A DNA stretch of 64,000 nucleotides, taken from assembly GCA_038736355.1 (NCBI GenBank), contig JAVYML010000003.1, positions 186,001-250,000 on the forward strand. Reading direction: 5' to 3'. The stretch comes from Candidatus Hadarchaeales archaeon (GTDB taxonomy: Archaea > Hadarchaeota > Hadarchaeia > Hadarchaeales > WYZ-LMO6). The notes under the pieces are model-generated. The model saw nothing but the letters and a program-made list of their open reading frames with translations. It ran no database searches and was not told the origin of the DNA. Positions 13,275 through 60,176 of the stretch are shown one piece after another. The translations under genes were made by a program, and so were the position numbers. Each line of letters starts with the position of its first letter. The stretch's first letter is position 1.

Positions 13275-14705
13275 CTACTCCAATGGTGGTAAGCGATGGG
13301 TCCAAGGCCTCAGGTTTTCAAAAGCGAGACAGACTTTGAGGATAAGCTTTTCCGAAAAACGCTTACCAATCACCTGCATCCCTATCGGAAGTCCTTCCAC
13401 CCATCCACATGGAACGGAAGCAGCGGGGTGTCCGGTGAGGTTGAAAGGATAGGTAAGAATCCATCCCAGGAGAGGATTTACTTCTTTGCCATTTATCTCG
13501 GTAGGGCCAAGTTGGTTCACCGGAAAGGGAGGAACCGCCAAGGTGGGGGTGAGAAGGAAATCGAATTCTTTGAAGAGTTCTTGGATGCCAAGCCAGACTT
13601 TTCCCCTAGTCATCTCTGCGCGCTTGTACTCTACGGCCGAGATCCCCTTTCCCAATTCTGAAAGCGCTTGAACTTCTGGAGTCAGTTTTTCCTTCTCTTC
13701 CTTTGAAAGATCGCCAAGTATGGAACTAAAAGCCACTACCCAAAGTGTTTGGAAGGCCCCTTCTATTTCCTCTTTGTTGGGAAGGACGGGGTTCTTTTCT
13801 ACCACCTCCATTCCAAGCTCTTCAAAAGACCAAGCAGCTTCCTCCACTACCTTTCTTACCCTTTCATCCACCTCAAAGTATCCCAAGTTGGGGCTGTAAG
13901 CAATCTTCAAGCCTTTTACTTCACCTTCGAGTTCTGTATAATCCTTTTCGGGAGAAGGAAGGCTAAAGGGATCCACGTCATGGTAGCCTACCATGACCGA
14001 AAGGAGAAGGGCCGCATCCTTCACGCTCCTAGCGATAGGGCCATGGGTTATAAAAGGGGAAACATGACCGAAGGGTCCCGGACCTAACTCCACCATGAGG
14101 TCCATGGGAATGAGCCCGGAGGTGGGCTTCAGACCGAAAACACCACAGGCGCTTGAAGGTATTCTAATGGAACCACCCCCATCACTTCCCTCCGCGAAGG
14201 GAGCCATTCCTGCAGCCACGGCAGCCGCTGATCCACCACTGGATCCTCCAGCCGTTCTTTCCAGATTCCAAGGATTGCGGGTAGCCCCAAAAAGGGCATT
14301 CACCGTATTTCCCATCCAGCCGAACTCCGGAGTATTGGTCTTTCCTAGGGGAATGGCTCCAGCTTTTTTCAACCTTTCTACTACCACGGCATCTCTTGAT
14401 GGAACAAAGTTCTCGAAAAGCCTGGATCCAAAGGTGGTCTTTACTCCATGCATGGGGGTGAGGTCCTTAATGGCTATAGGTATTCCGTGTAGAGGTCCTA
14501 ACTTTTTTCCCTCCTTCAAGGCTCTTTCTGCTTCTTCTGCCTTCTTTCTAGCCTCTTTTTCCAAAACCAAACAGTAGGCATTTACTTTTGGGTTAAGTCT
14601 TCTTATCCTCTCCAAAAAGGTCTCCACCACTTCCACGGGAGAAAGAACTCCATCTCTGATTCTGGAAGAAAGTTCTGTAACGGGCAAAAAGCATAGCTCC
14701 TTCAT
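13275..14705 (-). CDS. Amidase-signature hydrolase
   Basis: A 476-residue member of the amidase signature family (Ser-cisSer-Lys triad). The Lys is in GIPIAIKDL, the cis-Ser in TAGGSSGGSAAAVAAG and the nucleophile in GSDGGGSIRIPSSACG. The block reads GGGSIR rather than the DTGGSIR of GatA, and no gatB or gatC is adjacent. It is therefore more likely an amide hydrolase of unknown substrate than the tRNA amidotransferase subunit. It overlaps EF-1A by four bases, an unexpected operon partner. Confidence 0.85.
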   Translation of the reverse strand: MKELCFLPVTELSSRIRDGVLSPVEVVETFLERIRRLNPKVNAYCLVLEKEARKKAEEAERALKEGKKLGPLHGIPIAIKDLTPMHGVKTTFGSRLFENFVPSRDAVVVERLKKAGAIPLGKTNTPEFGWMGNTVNALFGATRNPWNLERTAGGSSGGSAAAVAAGMAPFAEGSDGGGSIRIPSSACGVFGLKPTSGLIPMDLMVELGPGPFGHVSPFITHGPIARSVKDAALLLSVMVGYHDVDPFSLPSPEKDYTELEGEVKGLKIAYSPNLGYFEVDERVRKVVEEAAWSFEELGMEVVEKNPVLPNKEEIEGAFQTLWVVAFSSILGDLSKEEKEKLTPEVQALSELGKGISAVEYKRAEMTRGKVWLGIQELFKEFDFLLTPTLAVPPFPVNQLGPTEINGKEVNPLLGWILTYPFNLTGHPAASVPCGWVEGLPIGMQVIGKRFSEKLILKVCLAFENLRPWTHRLPPLE

Positions 14706-15943
14706 TCTCTCTTAACCACCTCTACGCACACCCCAGCCCCTATGGTTTGTCCCCCGTGTCTCATCGCAAACCTTGAAAGATGGGGGATATCCACCGCTCT
14801 TTCTATTACGAGGGGCTTGAGAGGTTCTACTTCTATTACTCCGACTTCTCCCTTCTTCAGTCCTTCTGGACTTTCCTCCAAAGTTTCCCCCGTTCTGGGA
14901 TCCACCTTTTTAAGCACGGAAAGGATTTTGCCGGGAACACTGGCGGTATGGCAGTGAAAGGTGGGAACAAAACCTGGCTTTAGTTGGTGAGGGACATTGA
15001 GAACCACTACTTTGGCGGTGAACCTCTGGGCAACACTGGGCGGATGGTCTGGATGACCTACCACATCTCCTCTTTTTATCTCGTCTTTAGAAACACCCCT
15101 TACGTTGAAACCTATGTTATCCCCGGGTAAGGCCCTTTCTACAGGCTGATGATGGACTTCTATGGATCTCACCTCTCCCTTCTTACCAGACGGTTCAAAA
15201 ACAACGGTATCTCCCACTTTGAGGATCCCTGTTTCCACCTTCCCTATGGGCACAGTTCCCACTCCCGTTATGGAAAAAACGTTCTGGAGGGGGATGCGTA
15301 GGGGTTTGTCTATGGGTTTTTCCCCTTCCTGTAAAGAATCTAAGGCTTCGAGCAGGGTAGGTCCTTTGTACCAGGGCATCTTAGGGCTCGGTTTGATGAT
15401 GTTTTCTCCAAGCCAGGCCGAAACGGGCACGTAATGAAAGGTAGAACTGGGGTATCCCAAGCTTTTCAGGAGAGAGGAGACTTCCTGTTTTAGCTTAAGA
15501 TAAGTTTTCTCATCGAATCCCACCAAGTCCATCTTGTTTATGGCTACCACTAGCTGGTTTACTCCCAGCGTGAAGGCCAAGGCCGCATGTTCTTTGGTCT
15601 GGGGCATGATTCCATCGTCTGCCGCTACCACCAATACCGCAGCATCGGCCTGACTTGCTCCCGTGATCATGTTTTTCACAAAATCCCTATGTCCTGGGGC
15701 ATCGATGATGGTTAGGATGGTATTGGGTGTCTCTATTTTCTGATAGGAGATTTCTATGGTTACCCCTCTTTCCCTTTCTTCCTTAAGTTTGTCCATGAGC
15801 CAAGCGAATTTGAAGCTTCCAGCTTCCGAGGGCAAATCCTTTTCCGATACTATCCCGAGGTCGAAAAGGGTTCTCCCCACCAGGGTGGATTTTCCGTGAT
15901 CCACATGTCCCATGAAAAGCAGATTTATGTGTTTTTTAGACAG
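14702..15943 (-). CDS. tuf: Translation elongation factor EF-1A, apparent CTG start
   Basis: A 413-residue GTPase delivering aminoacyl-tRNA to the ribosome. G motifs are GHVDHGKST, DAPGH and NKMD, followed by the two beta-barrel domains ending in RHGGQTIGAGVCVEVV. The first in-frame ATG (15913) would begin at MGHVDHG and delete strand beta-1. Upstream codons encode SKKHINLLF, which matches the conserved N-terminus, and the frame begins plausibly at CTG 15943 preceded by GGAGG with seven-base spacing. No ATG, GTG or TTG lies in frame between. It follows an unknown membrane protein gene by 11 bases and overlaps the amidase gene. Confidence 0.95.
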   Translation of the reverse strand: MSKKHINLLFMGHVDHGKSTLVGRTLFDLGIVSEKDLPSEAGSFKFAWLMDKLKEERERGVTIEISYQKIETPNTILTIIDAPGHRDFVKNMITGASQADAAVLVVAADDGIMPQTKEHAALAFTLGVNQLVVAINKMDLVGFDEKTYLKLKQEVSSLLKSLGYPSSTFHYVPVSAWLGENIIKPSPKMPWYKGPTLLEALDSLQEGEKPIDKPLRIPLQNVFSITGVGTVPIGKVETGILKVGDTVVFEPSGKKGEVRSIEVHHQPVERALPGDNIGFNVRGVSKDEIKRGDVVGHPDHPPSVAQRFTAKVVVLNVPHQLKPGFVPTFHCHTASVPGKILSVLKKVDPRTGETLEESPEGLKKGEVGVIEVEPLKPLVIERAVDIPHLSRFAMRHGGQTIGAGVCVEVVKRE

Positions 15944-15950
15944 AACGGAC

Positions 15951-15955
15951 CCTCC
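15951..15955 (-). promoter_or_regulatory. Shine-Dalgarno GGAGG for the EF-1A CTG start
   Basis: GGAGG on the minus strand lies seven bases before the CTG at 15943. It is the only strong ribosome-binding motif near the EF-1A N-terminus and decides the start. Confidence 0.7.
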
Positions 15956-16656
15956 TAACTAGAAGGAGCCGTGCTTCCTCCTGTGGAGGAGAGGAGGAAA
16001 AGGCGTACATAACTTTCAGTGTTGGATTTGAGCTCCCTCAAATCCCTCACCATCCTATCCGTGGCCCTTCTCAAAGGAAGAAGATAGGCCTCGCCAACTC
16101 CCCGCTTGGCCAAAGAAATCCCTTCCAAGTCCCTGAGAATGGTTTCAGCCATGGTAGCCGCCCTTTCCACGGAGGATACCAGACTCATTAAGATTTCTTG
16201 GGATGGCTTTTCTGAGAGGCTTACAATAACTCCCTTCAAAAAGTTTGAAAGTTCTTTGGCACGGGCTTCGAGCTTAAACTTAACCAAATCTTGAAGTTCT
16301 GGCTTAGCAAGTGCTATGGAAAGCCTAGAGCTGAGGAGATCGGCGTTGGAAACGATGGATCCCAAATCGGCTCTAAGTATCATCGTAGCCAAGGAAAGAT
16401 CAGAAGGACCAAGCTTCTGGAGTTCCTTGGCCGGTTCCCCCGCGTCCACCCAAAGGGAGAAGTCTTCTATGGGCACTTCCAACGGTCGGTGGGGAGAGGA
16501 AGTAAGGTAAAGAGTTAAAACGGAAAGGGCTACAAGGCAAGCAGAAGCAGAAATAAAAATCATCCAAGGAGTTGTCCCTCCTATGTCAAGACCCACCAAA
16601 AGAAGGGCTACAATAGAGGCCAAGAGGGAAAGGACGGGTAAAGGATGGATTCTCAT
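15955..16656 (-). CDS. Unknown protein with two N-terminal membrane helices and helical cytoplasmic domain
   Basis: About 233 residues. Two hydrophobic segments near the N-terminus (PVLSLLASIVALLLVGL and MIFISASACLVALSVLTLYL) form a hairpin, and the rest is a soluble, helix-rich domain with several Leu/Arg heptads. I recognise no family. The ATG at 16656 follows a TTG at 16659. It lies 11 bases upstream of the EF-1A CTG on the same strand, and its first bases are close to the divergent PPS promoter. A role tied to translation is only suggested by position. Confidence 0.6.
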   Translation of the reverse strand: MRIHPLPVLSLLASIVALLLVGLDIGGTTPWMIFISASACLVALSVLTLYLTSSPHRPLEVPIEDFSLWVDAGEPAKELQKLGPSDLSLATMILRADLGSIVSNADLLSSRLSIALAKPELQDLVKFKLEARAKELSNFLKGVIVSLSEKPSQEILMSLVSSVERAATMAETILRDLEGISLAKRGVGEAYLLPLRRATDRMVRDLRELKSNTESYVRLFLLSSTGGSTAPSS

Positions 16657-16666
16657 CAAGGGAAAT

Positions 16667-25377: not shown

Positions 25378-28300
25378 ATGAAAAAGATGCCAGAGAGGGA
25401 GGTAAAACTAACGGTAGCCGAAAATTCCCATCAACCAGATGTTGGGAGAGGACTCGCCCGTATCCCGGACCACGTGGCCGAGAGGCTTGGGATAAGCCCG
25501 GGAGATGTGGTGGAAATCCAAGGAACGAAGACCACTGGTGTAATTGCCATGAAAGGTTTTGCAGAAGACAGAGGGCTGGATATCATAAGGATAGACGGTA
25601 TTATCAGGCACAATGCCGGGACTTCCATAGGAGAGAAGGTTCTGGTTAGGAAAGCGGAAGTGAAGGAGGCCAAAAAGGTTACCTTGGCCCCGGCCAGCCC
25701 AGGTATAAGAATTTCCGTTCCTGGGGAGGTGATGAGACGCAACCTGCTCGGAAGGCCCCTCACGAGGGGGGATCTCATCACCACGGCTTCCATGAGGAGA
25801 GGGTTCGGTGAACCCTTCATCGAACAGATTTTCGGTTCTTTCTTGGAGGAGACCCCTCTGGGTTTGGGAGAGATGAGGTTCATCGTGGTCTCCACCATTC
25901 CCCTAGGAATAGTTTTGGTGGTGGATTCCACCGAAATAGAAGTGCTTCCTGAAGCCGTAGCGGTTAAGGAAACCAGAGTACCTGCCGTGACTTATGAGGA
26001 CATCGGTGGTTTGAAGGAAGAATTGAAGAGGGTGAGGGAGATGATCGAACTTCCCCTCAAACATCCTGAGCTTTTCGACAGGCTTGGCATAGAACCTCCC
26101 AAAGGAGTATTGCTCTACGGACCGCCTGGAACCGGAAAAACCCTCATAGCGAAGGCAGTGGCCAACGAATCGGGGGCCAATTTCATTTCCATCAATGGGC
26201 CCGAGGTCATGAGCAAATGGTATGGAGAATCGGAGGCACGTCTGAGGAAAATCTTTGAGGACGCGGAAAAGAATGCTCCCTCCATCGTGTTCATAGACGA
26301 GCTGGACGCCATAGCACCTAAGAGAGAAGAGGTGACGGGAGAAGTGGAGAGAAGGGTAGTGGCCACTCTGTGTACAGCTTTGGATGGTTTGAAGTCGAGG
26401 GGAAGGGTTATCGTAATAGGGGCCACTAACCGTCCCAATGCGCTGGATCCCGCCATAAGAAGGCCGGGAAGATTCGATAGGGAAATCGAGATAGGAGTAC
26501 CGGACAGGGAAGGGAGGAAGGAAATCCTGCAAATACACACCAGGGGCATGCCTCTGGCCAAAGATGTGGATTTGGATCGTCTTGCGGATATTACCCATGG
26601 CTTTGTGGGCGCAGACCTAGAGGCCCTGTGCAAGGAGGCCGCCATGAGTGCCCTCAGGAGGATTCTTCCCAAAATCAACTTGGAGGAAAAGACCATTCCG
26701 CCAGAAATCCTAGAAGAGCTCCAGGTCACCAAAGAGGACTTCGAGAATGCCCTAAAGGTAGTGGAGCCTTCGGCCATGAGGGAAGTGATGTTGGAGGTTC
26801 CCAATGTTCATTGGTCTGACATAGGGGGTTTGGAGGAGGCCAAGAGGGAGCTGAGGGAAGCCGTGGAATGGCCCCTGAAGTATCCAGACGCTTTCAAGAG
26901 GATGGGGATCGAGCCCCCAAAGGGTATCCTGCTTTTCGGCCCTCCAGGGACAGGGAAGACCCTCCTTGCTAGGGCGGTAGCCACGGAGAGTGAGGCCAAC
27001 TTCATTGCAGTGAAGGGACCAGAGCTCCTCTGTATCTCGGGTGAAACCCCCGTTCTAACGAGCTTCTGCGGACTCATGCCCGTGAAGGAACTCTATGAAA
27101 ACCTGATGCCGTTCACTCAGTTGGAGTTCAGGAAAGAGGGGATGGAAAGCAGAAGGCTTACGGTTCCCGTGTATACCTTCGCCTTGGGTGATGGGGGCAA
27201 GATGGTAAAGACCAGGATACAGCGAATTTACAAGCTATATGTAAGGGAGGCCTACAGGCTGAAGTTCTCGAATGGGGTGGAAATGTGTGTTTCCGCCAAC
27301 CAGCCCTTCTTGGTCCTGAGGGGGGATGGAGTAGAGTGGGTCAAAACCTCCTCCCTAAGGACAGGGGAGTATGTGGCTGTGCCGGCACGCACCGGAACCT
27401 TCGATATGGAAATCCCGATAGGACTTCCCAAGAACCGCTATCTCAAGCTCGTTTCCGAAGACGGGGAAGCCTACACGGTGAGGATTTTCAACACGAAGAT
27501 CTCGACGCGCCTGCCTAAGCGGATGACCCCCGAGCTGGCGGAATTCCTGGGCTGGTTCGCGGCGGAGGGCTGCATCTCCAGGGAGGGGGTGACCCTGTGT
27601 GACTCGGACTCAGAAAAGAGGAAGAGGATAGTGGAGCTCTTCCAGCTCTTCGTTTCGAGGGAGAGGATCTCGGAAAGCAAGGACGGGATGAGGATTACCG
27701 TCTCTTCCACCCCCCTGATGCTCTATCTCCAAGACCTGTTTGGGATGTCCCTTTGCAAGAAGTCTCATTCTATTGGGGTTCCTCCGCTGATCTTCAAATC
27801 CTCCCCGAGGGTGATGGCAGGCTTCCTCCGGGGGCTTTACGAGGGAGATGGAAACATGGACGACAAGAAAATCGAGTACGGCACCATGAACAGAAAGCTT
27901 GCGGAGGGAGTATCTTACCTTCTCACGGCCCTGGGTATAAAGCACAGGTTCTGGAGGAGGAAGGACGGGATGTACCTCCTGACGGTCTCCGGGAGGCTGG
28001 AGATGCAAAAGTTCATGCGGGTGGTTTATGGGGAAACCCAGGCAGGGGAAATCAGGCACCTCTACAACGGCAGTCTTCCAGACCTTTCCGGTTTACTCAA
28101 GAGAACCAAGGAGACCCTTCACCTCCGGTACGGTAAGGAACTCCCCGAGGGACTCTTCAAGGGGGTGAGCGGGAGGATAAGGTTGCAGCGCGTGCTCGAG
28201 TACATAGAGGAATACGCCCCAGAGTTCAAGGCATCCACCCTTTACCAGACCCTCAGAATACTGGCTGGGGGAGACCTGAGCTGGGTGAGGGTGGAGGAGA

Positions 28301-29004
28301 AGAAACGTGCGAGCCCCAGGTGGATGTACGACCTAGAGACGGAACACTCCTCCTTCGTAGGTGGGAACCTGCCCATGCTCCTCCACAACTCGAAGTGGGT
28401 GGGAGAATCCGAAAAAGGTGTGAGGGAGGTCTTCAGGAGGGCCAAAACCGCAGCCCCCGCCATCATCTTCTTCGATGAGCTCGATGCCTTGGTACCGAGA
28501 AGGGGGTCGGGCTTCGGTGACGCCCATGTAACGGAGAGGGTGATAAGCCAGCTCTTAACGGAGATGGATGGATTGGAAAAGCTGGAAAATGTGGTGGTAA
28601 TAGGGGCCACCAACCGTCCCGACTTAATAGATCCTGCTCTCCTACGTCCCGGAAGGTTCGATAGGTTGGTTTATGTGCCCCCGCCGGACGAAAAGGCTAG
28701 ATTGGAAATCCTAAAGATTCACACCAGGAAGATGCCTTTGGCCAAGGATGTAGATCTAGAGCAACTGGCCAAGGAAACGGAGGGCTATTCCGGTTCTGAC
28801 CTAGCGGCCCTCTGCAGGGAAGCTGCCATGCTTGCCCTCAGGGAAGATATCAACGCAAAAGAGGTGACCATGAAACACTTCCGTGAAACCATGAAAAAGA
28901 TCAGACCCTCCATACTCCCGGAAATGGAGGAGGCCTATCGCTCCTTCCTCTCCCGCTCCAAGAGCGAGGTGAAGAAGGAGATCACACCCAGAATCTTCTA
29001 TTGA
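25378..29004 (+). CDS. cdc48: CDC48/VCP-type AAA ATPase precursor with intein
   Basis: A 1208-codon precursor; removing the intein leaves about 755 residues, normal for archaeal CDC48. Residues 1-190 form the double-psi-barrel N domain ([15 protein letters not shown]). D1 has Walker A GPPGTGKT at residue 248 and Walker [11 protein letters not shown]2 has Walker A near residue 521 and, after the intein, [10 protein letters not shown] and an Arg-finger region. The protein is a hexameric unfoldase acting with proteasome and other partners; psmA lies at 61388. The second in-frame ATG (25387) fits a TATA-like element at 25357 and may be the true start. The C-terminus ends RIFY. Confidence 0.97.
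27031..28389 (+). mobile_element. Intein with LAGLIDADG homing endonuclease in CDC48 D2
   Basis: A 453-residue intein (precursor residues 552-1004) splits the D2 pore-loop motif [13 protein letters not shown]. The N-terminal splice block begins [10 protein letters not shown] and the C-terminal block ends MLLHN before Ser1005, so Cys1, the penultimate His, the terminal Asn and Ser+1 are in place. Block F reads [14 protein letters not shown]. The endonuclease has two LAGLIDADG helices, [10 protein letters not shown] (722-731) and [13 protein letters not shown] (813-825), with acidic residues present. Block B reads [10 protein letters not shown]: the usual His is replaced by Gln642. The ATPase cannot be functional without splicing. 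Confidence 0.95.
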
Positions 29005-35394: not shown

Positions 35395-36303
35395 TCACTT
35401 CCCTTTCTCTATCATTGTTCCCGCTCCCTTGTCCGTGAGGAGCTCTAGGAGAAGGGCGTGGGGCATCGTTCCCTGGAGGATGTGTGCCCTCTCCACTCCC
35501 CCTTCCACCGCCCTGATACAGGCTTTCAACTTGGGAATCATACCTCCACTGACCACCCCTGAGGCCAGGAGTGTCTTCGCCTCCTCGACCGTGAGCTGAG
35601 AGATCAGCGTACTCTCGTCCTTGGGATCCCTGAGCACCCCTTTCACATTGGTGAGAACAATGAGCTTTTTAGCCCCCATCACGATGGCCAATTCTGCCGC
35701 CACCGTGTCAGCGTTTAGGTTGAGGCTCCTTCCCTCCTCGTCAACCCCCAAGGGTGAGAGGACGGGAATGTATCCATTGGAGAGGAGGAAGCTCACCATG
35801 TGGGGATCTATCCTCTCGATCTCTCCCACGAACCCCAAATCCACATGCAGTTTTTCCCCATTGGGCGTAGTTACTTCTCTTATCTTTTTGGCCAAGATAA
35901 TTTTTCCATCCACTCCTGAAATCCCCACCGCCCTTCCCCCGTACTTGTTTATACCCAGCACGATCTCGGTGTTGAGTTTTCCTACCAGATACTTATGCAG
36001 GATTTCTATGGTTTCCTTATCGGTCACGCGCAACCCAGCCACAAATTCGGGTTCCTTGCCCGCCTTTTTCATCTCCCTCGTGATTTCCGGTCCCCCCCCA
36101 TGTACCAAGACAGGTTTCATCCCCACATAGTGGAGGAGTACCACATCCTGGAGGAGGGAATCGAGGGTTTTCTTCTTCTCTATCACTTCCCCCCCAAGCT
36201 TGATTACCATGGTCTGACCATGAAACTTCCTGATGTAAGGAAGGGCCTCAAGCAAAACACTTGCCGGTTCCTGCAGTTCATCACCCGGTTTTCCTCTACT
36301 CAT
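35395..36303 (-). CDS. argB: Acetylglutamate kinase
   Basis: A 302-residue amino-acid kinase with VIKLGGEVIEKKK (ATP site), VLVHGGGPEIT and the acetylglutamate block VAGLRVTDKET. LSPLGVDEEGRSLNLNADTVAAELA follows. It carries an N-terminal helix of about 20 residues of the kind found in arginine-inhibited hexameric kinases, so feedback control is plausible. Confidence 0.95.
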   Translation of the reverse strand: MSRGKPGDELQEPASVLLEALPYIRKFHGQTMVIKLGGEVIEKKKTLDSLLQDVVLLHYVGMKPVLVHGGGPEITREMKKAGKEPEFVAGLRVTDKETIEILHKYLVGKLNTEIVLGINKYGGRAVGISGVDGKIILAKKIREVTTPNGEKLHVDLGFVGEIERIDPHMVSFLLSNGYIPVLSPLGVDEEGRSLNLNADTVAAELAIVMGAKKLIVLTNVKGVLRDPKDESTLISQLTVEEAKTLLASGVVSGGMIPKLKACIRAVEGGVERAHILQGTMPHALLLELLTDKGAGTMIEKGK

Positions 36304-41558: not shown

Positions 41559-42479
41559 CTAACCACCGGCTAAGGGAACCTCCAGCACCATGAGATCTTC
41601 GGCTACTACGGTATTGGGGAAAATTTTCCTAGCCTGTTCCAAAAGGGTAGAAACTTCCCGATACCTTGGACTGAGATGGGTGAGGACCAAAAGTTTTACT
41701 CCTGCCTCCTTCGCCACCCAAGCTGCTTCCGATGAGGTGGAATGTCCTCCTTCCTTGGCCCTTTCGAGAAGCTCCTCTCCGAACATGGAATCATGGATCA
41801 AAACATCTGCTCCTTGGGCTAAGGCAATGATTTCTTCACAGGGTCTTGTGTCCACCGCGTATACCACTTTCCTTCCAGGAAGGGGAGGACCCAACACTTC
41901 CTCTGGCCTTACCTCTCTACCTCCAGGAAGGAAAATCGGTTGACCAGCTTTGAGAAGAGAGAAGGCCGGTCCTGGTGTTACTCCCAATCCGACCGCCTTC
42001 TCCGGGTCCAGTTTCCCAGGTCTGGGAAATTCCTCTAGGGAAAAGGCCAAACCCACTACCCCATGTTTGGTGGAAGAAGTGAGGATTCTATAGCCCGTCC
42101 TTTCCACTTTTTCTCCTCCCTTCAATCCCCTTACCTTTACTTCGAATTCTAGAGTATAGTGGGGGAGTCGAAGAAGGGTCTCAATTTTTTCTTCCTCTCC
42201 CACTGGAACATAGACTTCCAGCGGACGGGTTCTACCAAAGAGGGACATCGTTTGTACCAATCCTGCCAGACCCAGGAAGTGATCTCCATGGAGATGGGAG
42301 ATGAAAACGGCATCTACCTTGAGGGGGCTGAGACCGACCCTTACCATTTGCCCCTGTGTTCCCTCACCACAATCGAAGAGGAGGAGTTCTCCACCCCTCT
42401 TGATGGCCAAAGAAGGAAGGGATCTAGAGGGGGAGGGAATGCTTCCTCCTGTTCCCAAAAAAGTTAGCGTGAGGTTCAG
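41559..42479 (-). CDS. rnz: Ribonuclease Z, apparent CTG start
   Basis: A 306-residue metallo-beta-lactamase endonuclease that trims tRNA 3' trailers. Metal ligands are in ISHLHGDHFLG, TKHGVVG, VYAVDTRPCEE, VLIHDSMFGE and VLTHLSPRY. The exosite arm GVTPGPAFSLLK is present. The first strand, encoded as NLTLTFLGTGG, extends seven codons upstream of the first TTG (42458). The frame begins at CTG 42479, eight bases after AGGGG, with no ATG, GTG or TTG between. It follows the Trm-G10 stop by four bases. Confidence 0.93.
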   Translation of the reverse strand: MNLTLTFLGTGGSIPSPSRSLPSLAIKRGGELLLFDCGEGTQGQMVRVGLSPLKVDAVFISHLHGDHFLGLAGLVQTMSLFGRTRPLEVYVPVGEEEKIETLLRLPHYTLEFEVKVRGLKGGEKVERTGYRILTSSTKHGVVGLAFSLEEFPRPGKLDPEKAVGLGVTPGPAFSLLKAGQPIFLPGGREVRPEEVLGPPLPGRKVVYAVDTRPCEEIIALAQGADVLIHDSMFGEELLERAKEGGHSTSSEAAWVAKEAGVKLLVLTHLSPRYREVSTLLEQARKIFPNTVVAEDLMVLEVPLAGG

Positions 42480-53669: not shown

Positions 53670-54917
53670 TTGGGAAAGTGTTTAGCGGAGAAATTGTTGG
53701 CCAAAAAAGCGGGGAAGGAAAGGGTAGAACCTGGAGAAATCGTGGAAGCTAGGGTGGATGTGGTAATGATGAACGATATCACGGGTCCGCTCGCCATAGA
53801 GAGCTTCAGGGAGATAGCTGATAGAGTATGGGATCCCAAAAGGGTCGTGATGATCCTCGACCATCAAATGCCTCCGAATTCCATAGAAATAGCCCGAGAC
53901 CACGTCATGATGAGGAATTTCGCAAAAGAACAGGGGATAGAAAACTTTTTTGCGGAAGGGGTTTGCCATCAGGTACTTCCGGAAAAGGGCTTCGCCCTTC
54001 CTGGTTTCCTGATTTTGGGAGCAGATTCCCACACCTGTACCTACGGGGCCTTCGGAAGTTTCGCTACGGGAATTGGATCCACGGATTTAGCTGCCGCCAT
54101 GGCTTTTGGAAAGCTTTGGTTGAGAGTCCCCGAAAGCGTGAAGATAGTGCTGGAGGGAAGACTAGGGAGAAGAGTATATCCTAAGGACGTTATCCTGTAC
54201 TTGGTAGGGGAAATTGGAGCAGATGGGGCTACTTACCAAGCTCTGGAATTTCATGGAGAAATAGTGAAGAAAATGAGCATTGGGGGCAGAATGACCCTTT
54301 GCAACATGGGAGTGGAAATGGGGGCCAAGACGGCCATAGTTCCTCCCGATACCTTGACTAGGAAATACGTGGAAGGGAGAGCCAGATTCCCCTTCGAAGA
54401 GATAAGAAGCGACCCGGACGCTGAATACGCGGAGGAAAGGATTTATTCCCTATCGAAGTTGGAACCACAAGTGGCCTGTCCTCACAGGGTGGACAACGTA
54501 AAACCCGTAAGGGAAGTGGAGGGAAAAGAAATAGATCAAGCTTTCCTGGGAAGCTGTACCAACGGTAGGACCGAAGACCTATTAGAAGCAGCCAAAATTC
54601 TCAAGGGAAGAAAAATCCACCCGCGCGTGAGGATGCTGGTCGTTCCCGCATCCAGGGAAACCTATCTGGAAGCCTTGAAATTGGGAATAATAGAGAGGTT
54701 GGTTAAAGCAGGAGCCATCCTTGGTCCACCGGGTTGCGGGGCTTGTATGGGGAGCTACATAGGAGTGTTGGGTCCAGGAGAAGTCTGCGTGTCGTCCTCC
54801 AATCGCAACTTCTTGGGCAGGATGGGAAGTCCTGAGGCCGAAATTTATTTGGCCTCCCCTGCCACCGTTGCCGCTTCCGCCTTGAAGGGCAGACTGACCG
54901 ATCCGAGGGATGTATGA
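53670..54917 (+). CDS. leuC: 3-isopropylmalate dehydratase large subunit (aconitase family)
   Basis: A 415-residue [4Fe-4S] hydro-lyase with LGADSHTCTYGAFG and cluster cysteines in FLGSCTNGR and PPGCGACMG. The start is TTG at 53670 giving GKCLAEKLLAKKAG. In archaea this family serves isopropylmalate, citramalate or homoaconitate chemistry. Location between ilvD and leuB favours leucine/isoleucine synthesis. No leuA or cimA is in the window. Confidence 0.92.
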   Translation: MGKCLAEKLLAKKAGKERVEPGEIVEARVDVVMMNDITGPLAIESFREIADRVWDPKRVVMILDHQMPPNSIEIARDHVMMRNFAKEQGIENFFAEGVCHQVLPEKGFALPGFLILGADSHTCTYGAFGSFATGIGSTDLAAAMAFGKLWLRVPESVKIVLEGRLGRRVYPKDVILYLVGEIGADGATYQALEFHGEIVKKMSIGGRMTLCNMGVEMGAKTAIVPPDTLTRKYVEGRARFPFEEIRSDPDAEYAEERIYSLSKLEPQVACPHRVDNVKPVREVEGKEIDQAFLGSCTNGRTEDLLEAAKILKGRKIHPRVRMLVVPASRETYLEALKLGIIERLVKAGAILGPPGCGACMGSYIGVLGPGEVCVSSSNRNFLGRMGSPEAEIYLASPATVAASALKGRLTDPRDV

Positions 54918-59261: not shown

Positions 59262-60176
59262 CTGAAAATTCTAATCACCGATCACGTTTCTGAGGAATTT
59301 TTGAAAGAAATAGAAAAATTGGGAGAGATAGTAGTCAAGCCAGGACTCTCTGAAGAAGAGCTCTGCAGGGAGATTGAAGACTATGAAGTTTTGATAGTGA
59401 GGAGTGCTACCAAGGTAACAAGGAAAGTGATCGAAGCGGGAAAGAAACTCAAAATCGTGGCGAGGGCAGGAGTAGGAATAGACAACATCGACGTGAAAGC
59501 TGCAGAGGAAAAAGGTGTCAGGGTGATTTACGCCCCAGAAGCCTCCAAAACTGCCGTGGCCGAACTGGTGATAGGCCTCATGCTCTGCTGGGCTAGGAAG
59601 ATTCCTCAAGCCTACAAGGAAATGAAGGAAGGAAAATGGGATAGAGAGAAATTCATAGGCACTGAGCTGAAGGGAAAAACCCTTGGAGTGATAGGGGTGG
59701 GAAGGATAGGGGGGGAAGTGGCCTTGAAGGCTTTAGCTTTTGGCATGAGGGTCTTGGGATACGACTTGGTGAGAAGAGAAGAAATGGAAAGAGCTGGGGT
59801 AAGATATGTGGATCTTCCCACCCTCCTCAAAGAAGCAGACTTTGTGAGCATTCACGTACCCCTGAATTCACAAACGGAAAGGATGATAGGAGAAAAAGAG
59901 CTTTCCCTCATGAAACCCACTGCTGTTCTGATAAATACCTCGAGAGGGAAAATCGTGGATGAAAGGGCCTTGGTCAAAGCCCTCAAGGAAAGAAAGATTG
60001 CAGGAGCTTGCTTGGACGTTTTCGAAGAAGAACCCACCAAAAACCTCGAGCTCCTTTCCCTTGAGCAGGTAATCCCCACCCCCCATTTGGGAGCCTCTAC
60101 GGTTGAATCCCAAAGGAATATAGCTCTTATCCTCTCTCAGAAACTAAAGGAGTTGATGGGGGTAGAAAGGGGATGA
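59262..60176 (+). CDS. serA: D-3-phosphoglycerate dehydrogenase, short form, apparent CTG start
   Basis: A 304-residue NAD-dependent dehydrogenase. Signatures: [13 protein letters not shown] at the N-terminus, the Rossmann motif [20 protein letters not shown], catalytic Arg in [14 protein letters not shown], and His in PTPHLGAS. No C-terminal ACT domain, so serine feedback is not expected. The conserved first strand is encoded only if translation begins at CTG 59262, which has a well-placed AGGTGA. No ATG, GTG or TTG lies in frame before the TTG at 59301, which would remove that strand. Overlaps L15e by four bases. Confidence 0.92.

Follow-up and report, generated by a model that had tools for sequence, protein, structure and literature searches.

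CUG accounts for 0.024% of bacterial initiation codons, a value that rests on annotation rarely allowing CTG and is therefore biased against it. In E. coli it has 0.86% of the activity of AUG; CUG initiation complexes from this organism have been solved by cryo-EM, and the rarity of CUG among the NUG start codons is still termed unexplained (PMC11497404). A study of start-codon switches between close prokaryotes found a change to CUG at 2 of 61,358 ancestral AUG starts, 1 of 5,080 GUG starts and 1 of 2,468 UUG starts, which makes four gains of CUG among about 69,000 starts in all, with the same bias of annotated starts against CTG (PMC5622118). Archaeal reviews name AUG, GUG and UUG as start codons (PMC7531240), and in Methanosarcina mazei CTG was assigned by Ribo-seq to 5% of 314 unannotated sORFs (PMC11456600).

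Our analysis of a 64,000-nucleotide stretch of Hadarchaeales DNA (the window) indicates that a duplicated EF-1A copy, EF-1A-B, almost certainly starts at the rare codon CTG. The features of this locus, and of three other window genes with CTG starts, are collected in Table 1. The genome to which the window belongs (G000), which its closest named relatives mark as a Hadesarchaea/Hadarchaeota MAG, was compared mainly with two congeners (G001 and G002), a genome of the same order (G005) and a distant archaeon (G029).

Table 1. Coordinates (window numbering) of the EF-1A-B locus and of further genes with CTG starts.
Feature	Position	Strand	Evidence and remarks
EF-1A paralogue (EF-1A-B), 413 aa if from CTG 15943	14702..15943	-	TIGR00483 and NF008969 matches; second of two EF-1A genes
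CTG start codon (predicted)	15941..15943	-	Aligned codon: TTG in G001, GTG in G002; ATG/GTG at or near it in other Hadarchaeales
Shine-Dalgarno (SD) GGAGG	15951..15955	-	7 nt between GGAGG and CTG; genome spacing peak 7 nt
Upstream 234-aa protein, conserved partner of EF-1A-B	15955..16659	-	Hydrophobic N-terminus
TAG stop of upstream gene, overlapping SD (TAGGAGG)	15955..15957	-	Sequence
RNase Z gene, CTG start 42479-42477	41559..42479	-	CTG in G001 with GGAGGTGA 7 nt upstream; ATG in G005; TIGR02651 334 bits
SerA/D-2-hydroxyacid dehydrogenase gene, CTG start 59262-59264	59262..60176	+	CTG in G001; ATG in G005; SD AAGGTGA
argB (acetylglutamate kinase) gene, probable CTG start 36276-36274	35395..36276	-	SD GGTGAT, spacing 7; CTG in G001; ATG in G005; TIGR00761 253 bits

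On the minus strand, the leader and start of EF-1A-B read CCTTCTAGTTAGGAGGGTCCGTT-CTG-TCT-AAA-AAA-CAC-ATA-AAT-CTG-CTT-TTC-ATG-GGA-CAT-GTG-GAT-CAC, and in the frame of the gene the CTG is preceded by TAG-TTA-GGA-GGG-TCC-GTT, the TAG being an in-frame stop at 15961-15959. The peptide encoded from CTG 15943 is L-SKKHINLLF-MGHVDHGKST, so that every detail we checked of the start proposed in a preliminary description of this DNA (a CTG at 15943, 7 nt after GGAGG, followed by SKKHINLLF) holds. The frame contains no ATG, GTG or TTG between TAG 15961 and ATG 15913, the codon that opens MGHVDHG, as that description had also said; the sole further in-frame NTG ahead of this ATG is the CTG within 'NLLF', which lacks an SD. 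Genome-wide, the spacing of SDs upstream of ATG codons near gene starts peaks at 7 nt (84 cases, vs 36 at 6 nt and 32 at 8 nt), and chance alone places an equally strong SD at a spacing of 6-8 nt before about 2% of the in-frame positions around gene starts; the EF-1A-B SD thus sits at the modal spacing. HMMER alignments of the rebuilt N-terminus begin with its residue 3 against residue 5 of the EF-1A structure 3wy9, and with its residue 2 against residue 3 of structure 1jny, so that a product started anywhere but at or close to the CTG would lack the strand that precedes GHVDHG. As judged from these alignments and the leader, no reading other than a start at CTG 15943 gives both the conserved N-terminus and a normally spaced SD.

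The start codons of relatives point to the same position. In the congener G001 (91% identical), a GTG directly follows the TTG aligned with CTG 15943 and might serve as the start in its place. Family and order relatives among the other Hadarchaeales open the same N-terminus with ATG or GTG, shifted by at most two codons, and the EF-1A-B of every readable relative starts upstream of the first beta-strand (beta-1). Among 58 EF-1A loci from other archaea and Hadarchaea, the start is ATG everywhere except for two GTG codons, both in the EF-1A-B paralogue, and this assembly alone has CTG in the EF-1A-B start column of the relatives compared. Since TTG, GTG or ATG occupies the homologous codon in relatives, the EF-1A-B start appears to be an NTG start that has turned into CTG. 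The alignment of this codon in close relatives, suggested in the preliminary description as a check, thus confirms the position; the accompanying proposal that an ATG in relatives would reveal a sequencing error fails as worded, as the ATG, GTG and TTG codons of relatives mark where the start lies.

EF-1A-B scores 600.9 bits against the TIGR00483 equivalog (residues 2-412), above the curated cut-off of 540.1 bits and over its full length, and 631 bits against NF008969. Its frame is open throughout, and the GTPase motifs GHVDHGKST, DAPGHRDF and NKMD are intact and align to 3wy9. It is not, as had been assumed, "the" EF-1A of the cell: the genome has two EF-1A genes, and the canonical copy (686 bits vs 601 bits for EF-1A-B) is encoded elsewhere, on contig C2, where it starts MAKPHLNLVTMGHVDHG with an ATG and adjoins rpsG (ribosomal protein S7). 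It is this copy beside S7 that is housekeeping-like, EF-1A-B lying outside the str-operon context. In our tree, the window-type EF-1A copies of this order group together on a longer stem (support 100/100), with the canonical-type copies as their sister clade. Judged from this topology, the duplication is older than the Hadarchaeales, and EF-1A-B is the faster-evolving of the two paralogues. Most of the same-order genomes searched hold a relative of it, 63-91% identical. EF-1A-B resembles canonical archaeal EF-1A (TIGR00483; PDB 3wy9 and 1jny) in its domain order, GTPase motifs and N-terminal strand, and differs in being specific to the Hadarchaeales, in lying beside an uncharacterised conserved gene and in its CTG start here; this conserved duplicate is easily taken for the housekeeping factor. 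The earlier view of the gene product as among the most highly expressed proteins of the cell is accordingly unsupported, and the argument drawn from high expression does not apply as stated, since the window gene is a paralogue with a separate canonical copy. A codon-adaptation comparison of the two copies was dropped because the reference set (S7 and uL13 only) was too small.

To estimate how common CTG starts are, genes were called and the codon aligned to the start of the orthologue was examined in about 850 kb of G000, 880 kb of G001, 400 kb of G005 and 400 kb of G029. As TTG and CTG are synonymous leucine codons, weight was given to columns with ATG or GTG in the orthologue (G005 and G029 serving as anchors). 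At such columns in the three Hadarchaeales genomes, an SD preceded 11/18 CTG codons vs 54/208 other non-start codons (Fisher p = 0.003); in G001, when an SD was also required in the homologue and TTG anchors were included, the counts were 10/10 vs 10/55 (p = 1e-6). SD-backed CTG starts were found at none of 93 genes in G029 and none of 131 genes in mixed archaeal loci. CTG makes up about 2% of checkable starts in G000 and about 3% in G001, and when every CTG codon close to a gene start was scanned in bulk, an SD was about as frequent as before other codons (10.2% vs 10.2% in G000, 14.2% vs 14.0% in G001), implying that CTG starts are few. The predicted CTG starts are thus recurrent and conserved, yet a minority in this lineage: the idea that CTG initiation is routine stands insofar as RNase Z, SerA and others recur, and overstates its frequency, and the genome scan proposed as a check yields an SD enrichment at anchored columns without a genome-wide excess. 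Two other approaches were abandoned, an unconstrained EM with 61 codons as candidate starts, which drifted to rare codons, and a pairwise scan for conserved SDs between G000 and G001, in which CTG/CTG columns were equally numerous at wrong and right spacings; at such divergence the upstream DNA is still alignable and TTG and CTG are synonymous, hence the reliance on ATG and GTG anchors. GC content, which is 55% and 63% for the congeneric pair G000 and G001, 46% for G005 and 39% for G029, may contribute to the frequency of CTG, both outgroups being GC-poorer. The window itself (1-64000) has a GC content of 49.6%, lower than most of the genome (54-57% in contigs C1 and C2); GC dips gradually along this part of contig C3. 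It also holds, at 25378-29004 (+), an ORF of 1208 aa for a VCP/Cdc48-type AAA ATPase whose second ATPase domain is seemingly split by an intein-like insert.

Clear CTG starts with little or no alternative are found in G000 for RNase Z, SerA, ArgB, ProC and a CBS-domain protein, in G001 for the same set plus LeuC and a B3/4-like protein, and in G005 for thymidylate kinase. When TTG anchors are excluded, the CTG starts that align with an ATG or GTG of G005 are those of argB, serA, proC, RNase Z and the CBS protein in G000, and of CBS, leuC, argB, serA, RNase Z and the B3/4-like protein in G001. The use of CTG by RNase Z and SerA, reported in the preliminary description, is borne out by this sharing with G001 and by the ATG aligned in the outgroup. 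Pairs of CTG in one congener and TTG in the other include EF-1A-B and a CooC/MinD-like ATPase (CTG in G000), and PurA and others (CTG in G001). For argB, an in-frame ATG at 36303 lies 27 nt upstream of CTG 36276; G001 reads AGG there, which, with the conserved and SD-placed CTG, indicates that the longer ORF (35395-36303) probably has a misread start. At the leuC-like gene at window position 53670 (+), the start column shows all four NTG codons across four genomes: TTG here, CTG in G001 (GGAGGTGAAACC-CTG), ATG in G005 and GTG in G029. A CTG may also open the gene for ribosomal protein uL5 in G001, although this gene has an ATG three codons further on; a CTG start for uL13 was ruled out, as an ATG directly precedes the CTG.

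The components of the initiation machinery that we inspected look ordinary. The 16S tail ends GATCACCTCCT, with an apparently standard anti-SD, and aIF1 (SUI1) was found in 40/41 genomes, so its loss as a cause of relaxed initiation was rejected. The initiator tRNA (CAU) of G000 and G001 has a standard anticodon arm, GGGCTCATAA^ACCC, with a loop intron, and splices to GGGCTCATAACCC; neither a changed anticodon nor a changed GGG:CCC stem was found in these two genomes, and an altered initiator anticodon was likewise rejected. Both genes (G000:C3:93214-93304 and G001:C7:35491-35584), in which the short intron lies in the anticodon loop, are misread by ARAGORN as tRNA-Ser. With the initiator tRNA, 16S tail and aIF1 all ordinary, a new initiator is not indicated, and we infer that Met-tRNAi is used on CUG with the help of the SD. 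The mRNA would have a leader, would probably be common to EF-1A-B and the gene directly upstream, and would offer GGAGG 7 nt before the CUG; the ordinary initiator Met-tRNA (CAU) would accept this codon through a C-U mismatch at the first position, giving methionine as the first residue. The strong SD, perhaps together with ribosomes terminating at the overlapping upstream UAG, would offset the weak codon. Within the genus, NTG would have changed to CTG at a few percent of starts, and other members of the order would show at least occasional cases.

The upstream gene adjoins EF-1A-B in 18/19 loci of relatives, throughout the Hadarchaeales, suggesting that its product, which has no NCBIfam match, and the EF-1A duplicate have a linked function. 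Its UAG ends 11 nt before the CUG and overlaps the SD (UAGGAGG), a detail absent from the preliminary description; this overlap and the conserved adjacency make termination-reinitiation plausible, and translational coupling from the upstream gene to EF-1A-B is thus possible. In the lowest-energy fold, part of the SD pairs with the end of the upstream gene (z = -1.45, not significant); such pairing would hinder initiation unless the genes are coupled, in which case translation of the upstream gene would open the fold.

Three other explanations were weighed against a CTG start. The EF-1A-B codon might in truth be TTG, GTG or ATG with one base wrong in the assembly, as could be suspected from the codons of relatives and from the CTG being seen in a single sequence of this species. 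CTG recurs at other starts, however, and those of RNase Z, SerA, ArgB, ProC and the CBS protein are common to the independent genome G001, so that errors are not needed to explain CTG starts; moreover, the window genes that we aligned to G001 showed no broken frames, and we regard an error as very improbable. We give an equally slim chance to a protein that lacks beta-1 because translation begins at ATG 15913, inside the frame, or to EF-1A-B being a decaying duplicate. ATG far surpasses CTG as a start codon and would be the choice of gene finders restricted to ATG, GTG and TTG, but ATG 15913 has no SD upstream and no readable relative starts so far downstream, and the retention of the paralogue across the order, with its full-length frame and intact GTPase motifs, argues against decay.

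Less probable still is another non-standard start, for which ATA 15928 and a second CTG at 15922 are available in frame upstream of ATG 15913, or read-through or reinitiation from the upstream frame. Both codons are off the SD spacing (22 and 28 nt from GGAGG) and their use would cut the conserved KxHxN segment, while the in-frame TAG at 15961 rules out a fusion by read-through in the EF-1A-B frame. The position of the SD, the conservation of beta-1 and the start codons of relatives all support the original proposal of CTG over ATG 15913. We therefore favour the CTG start, and the explanation as a whole, a second EF-1A paralogue with an SD-led CUG start, an ordinary Met-tRNAi, perhaps coupling, and recurrent NTG-to-CTG change, seems to us very likely on the comparative evidence. 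Initiation at CUG, methionine as the first residue, coupling and a reduced output are the parts of it that we infer from sequence.

CUG starts were already known, and what the comparison supports as new is their predicted recurrence at conserved genes within one archaeal lineage. One could go further and propose, tentatively and with somewhat more doubt than confidence, that CUG is a normal fourth start codon in Hadarchaeota, used at a few percent of conserved genes, about 100x the annotated bacterial frequency, through a machinery whose tolerance of the C-U mismatch lies elsewhere than in the anticodon arm of the initiator tRNA. With CUG retained at conserved starts, this lineage would open the rarity of the codon to testing. 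There is also a practical side, in that annotation limited to ATG, GTG and TTG would truncate N-termini in these archaea and standard gene finders would miss CTG starts. The Hadarchaeota starts resemble the bacterial CUG starts in being NUG codons read by initiator tRNA(CAU), with a first-position mismatch and help from the SD, and differ in making up about 2-3% of checkable genes, several of them common to species, the bacterial values not being archaeal ones. As in the study of start-codon switches (PMC5622118), AUG, GUG and UUG interchange at fixed start positions, whereas the Hadarchaeota starts that we checked include CUG far more often. The M. mazei sORFs likewise represent archaeal translation from CTG; those sORFs are short and unannotated, whereas in Hadarchaeota CTG opens conserved housekeeping genes.
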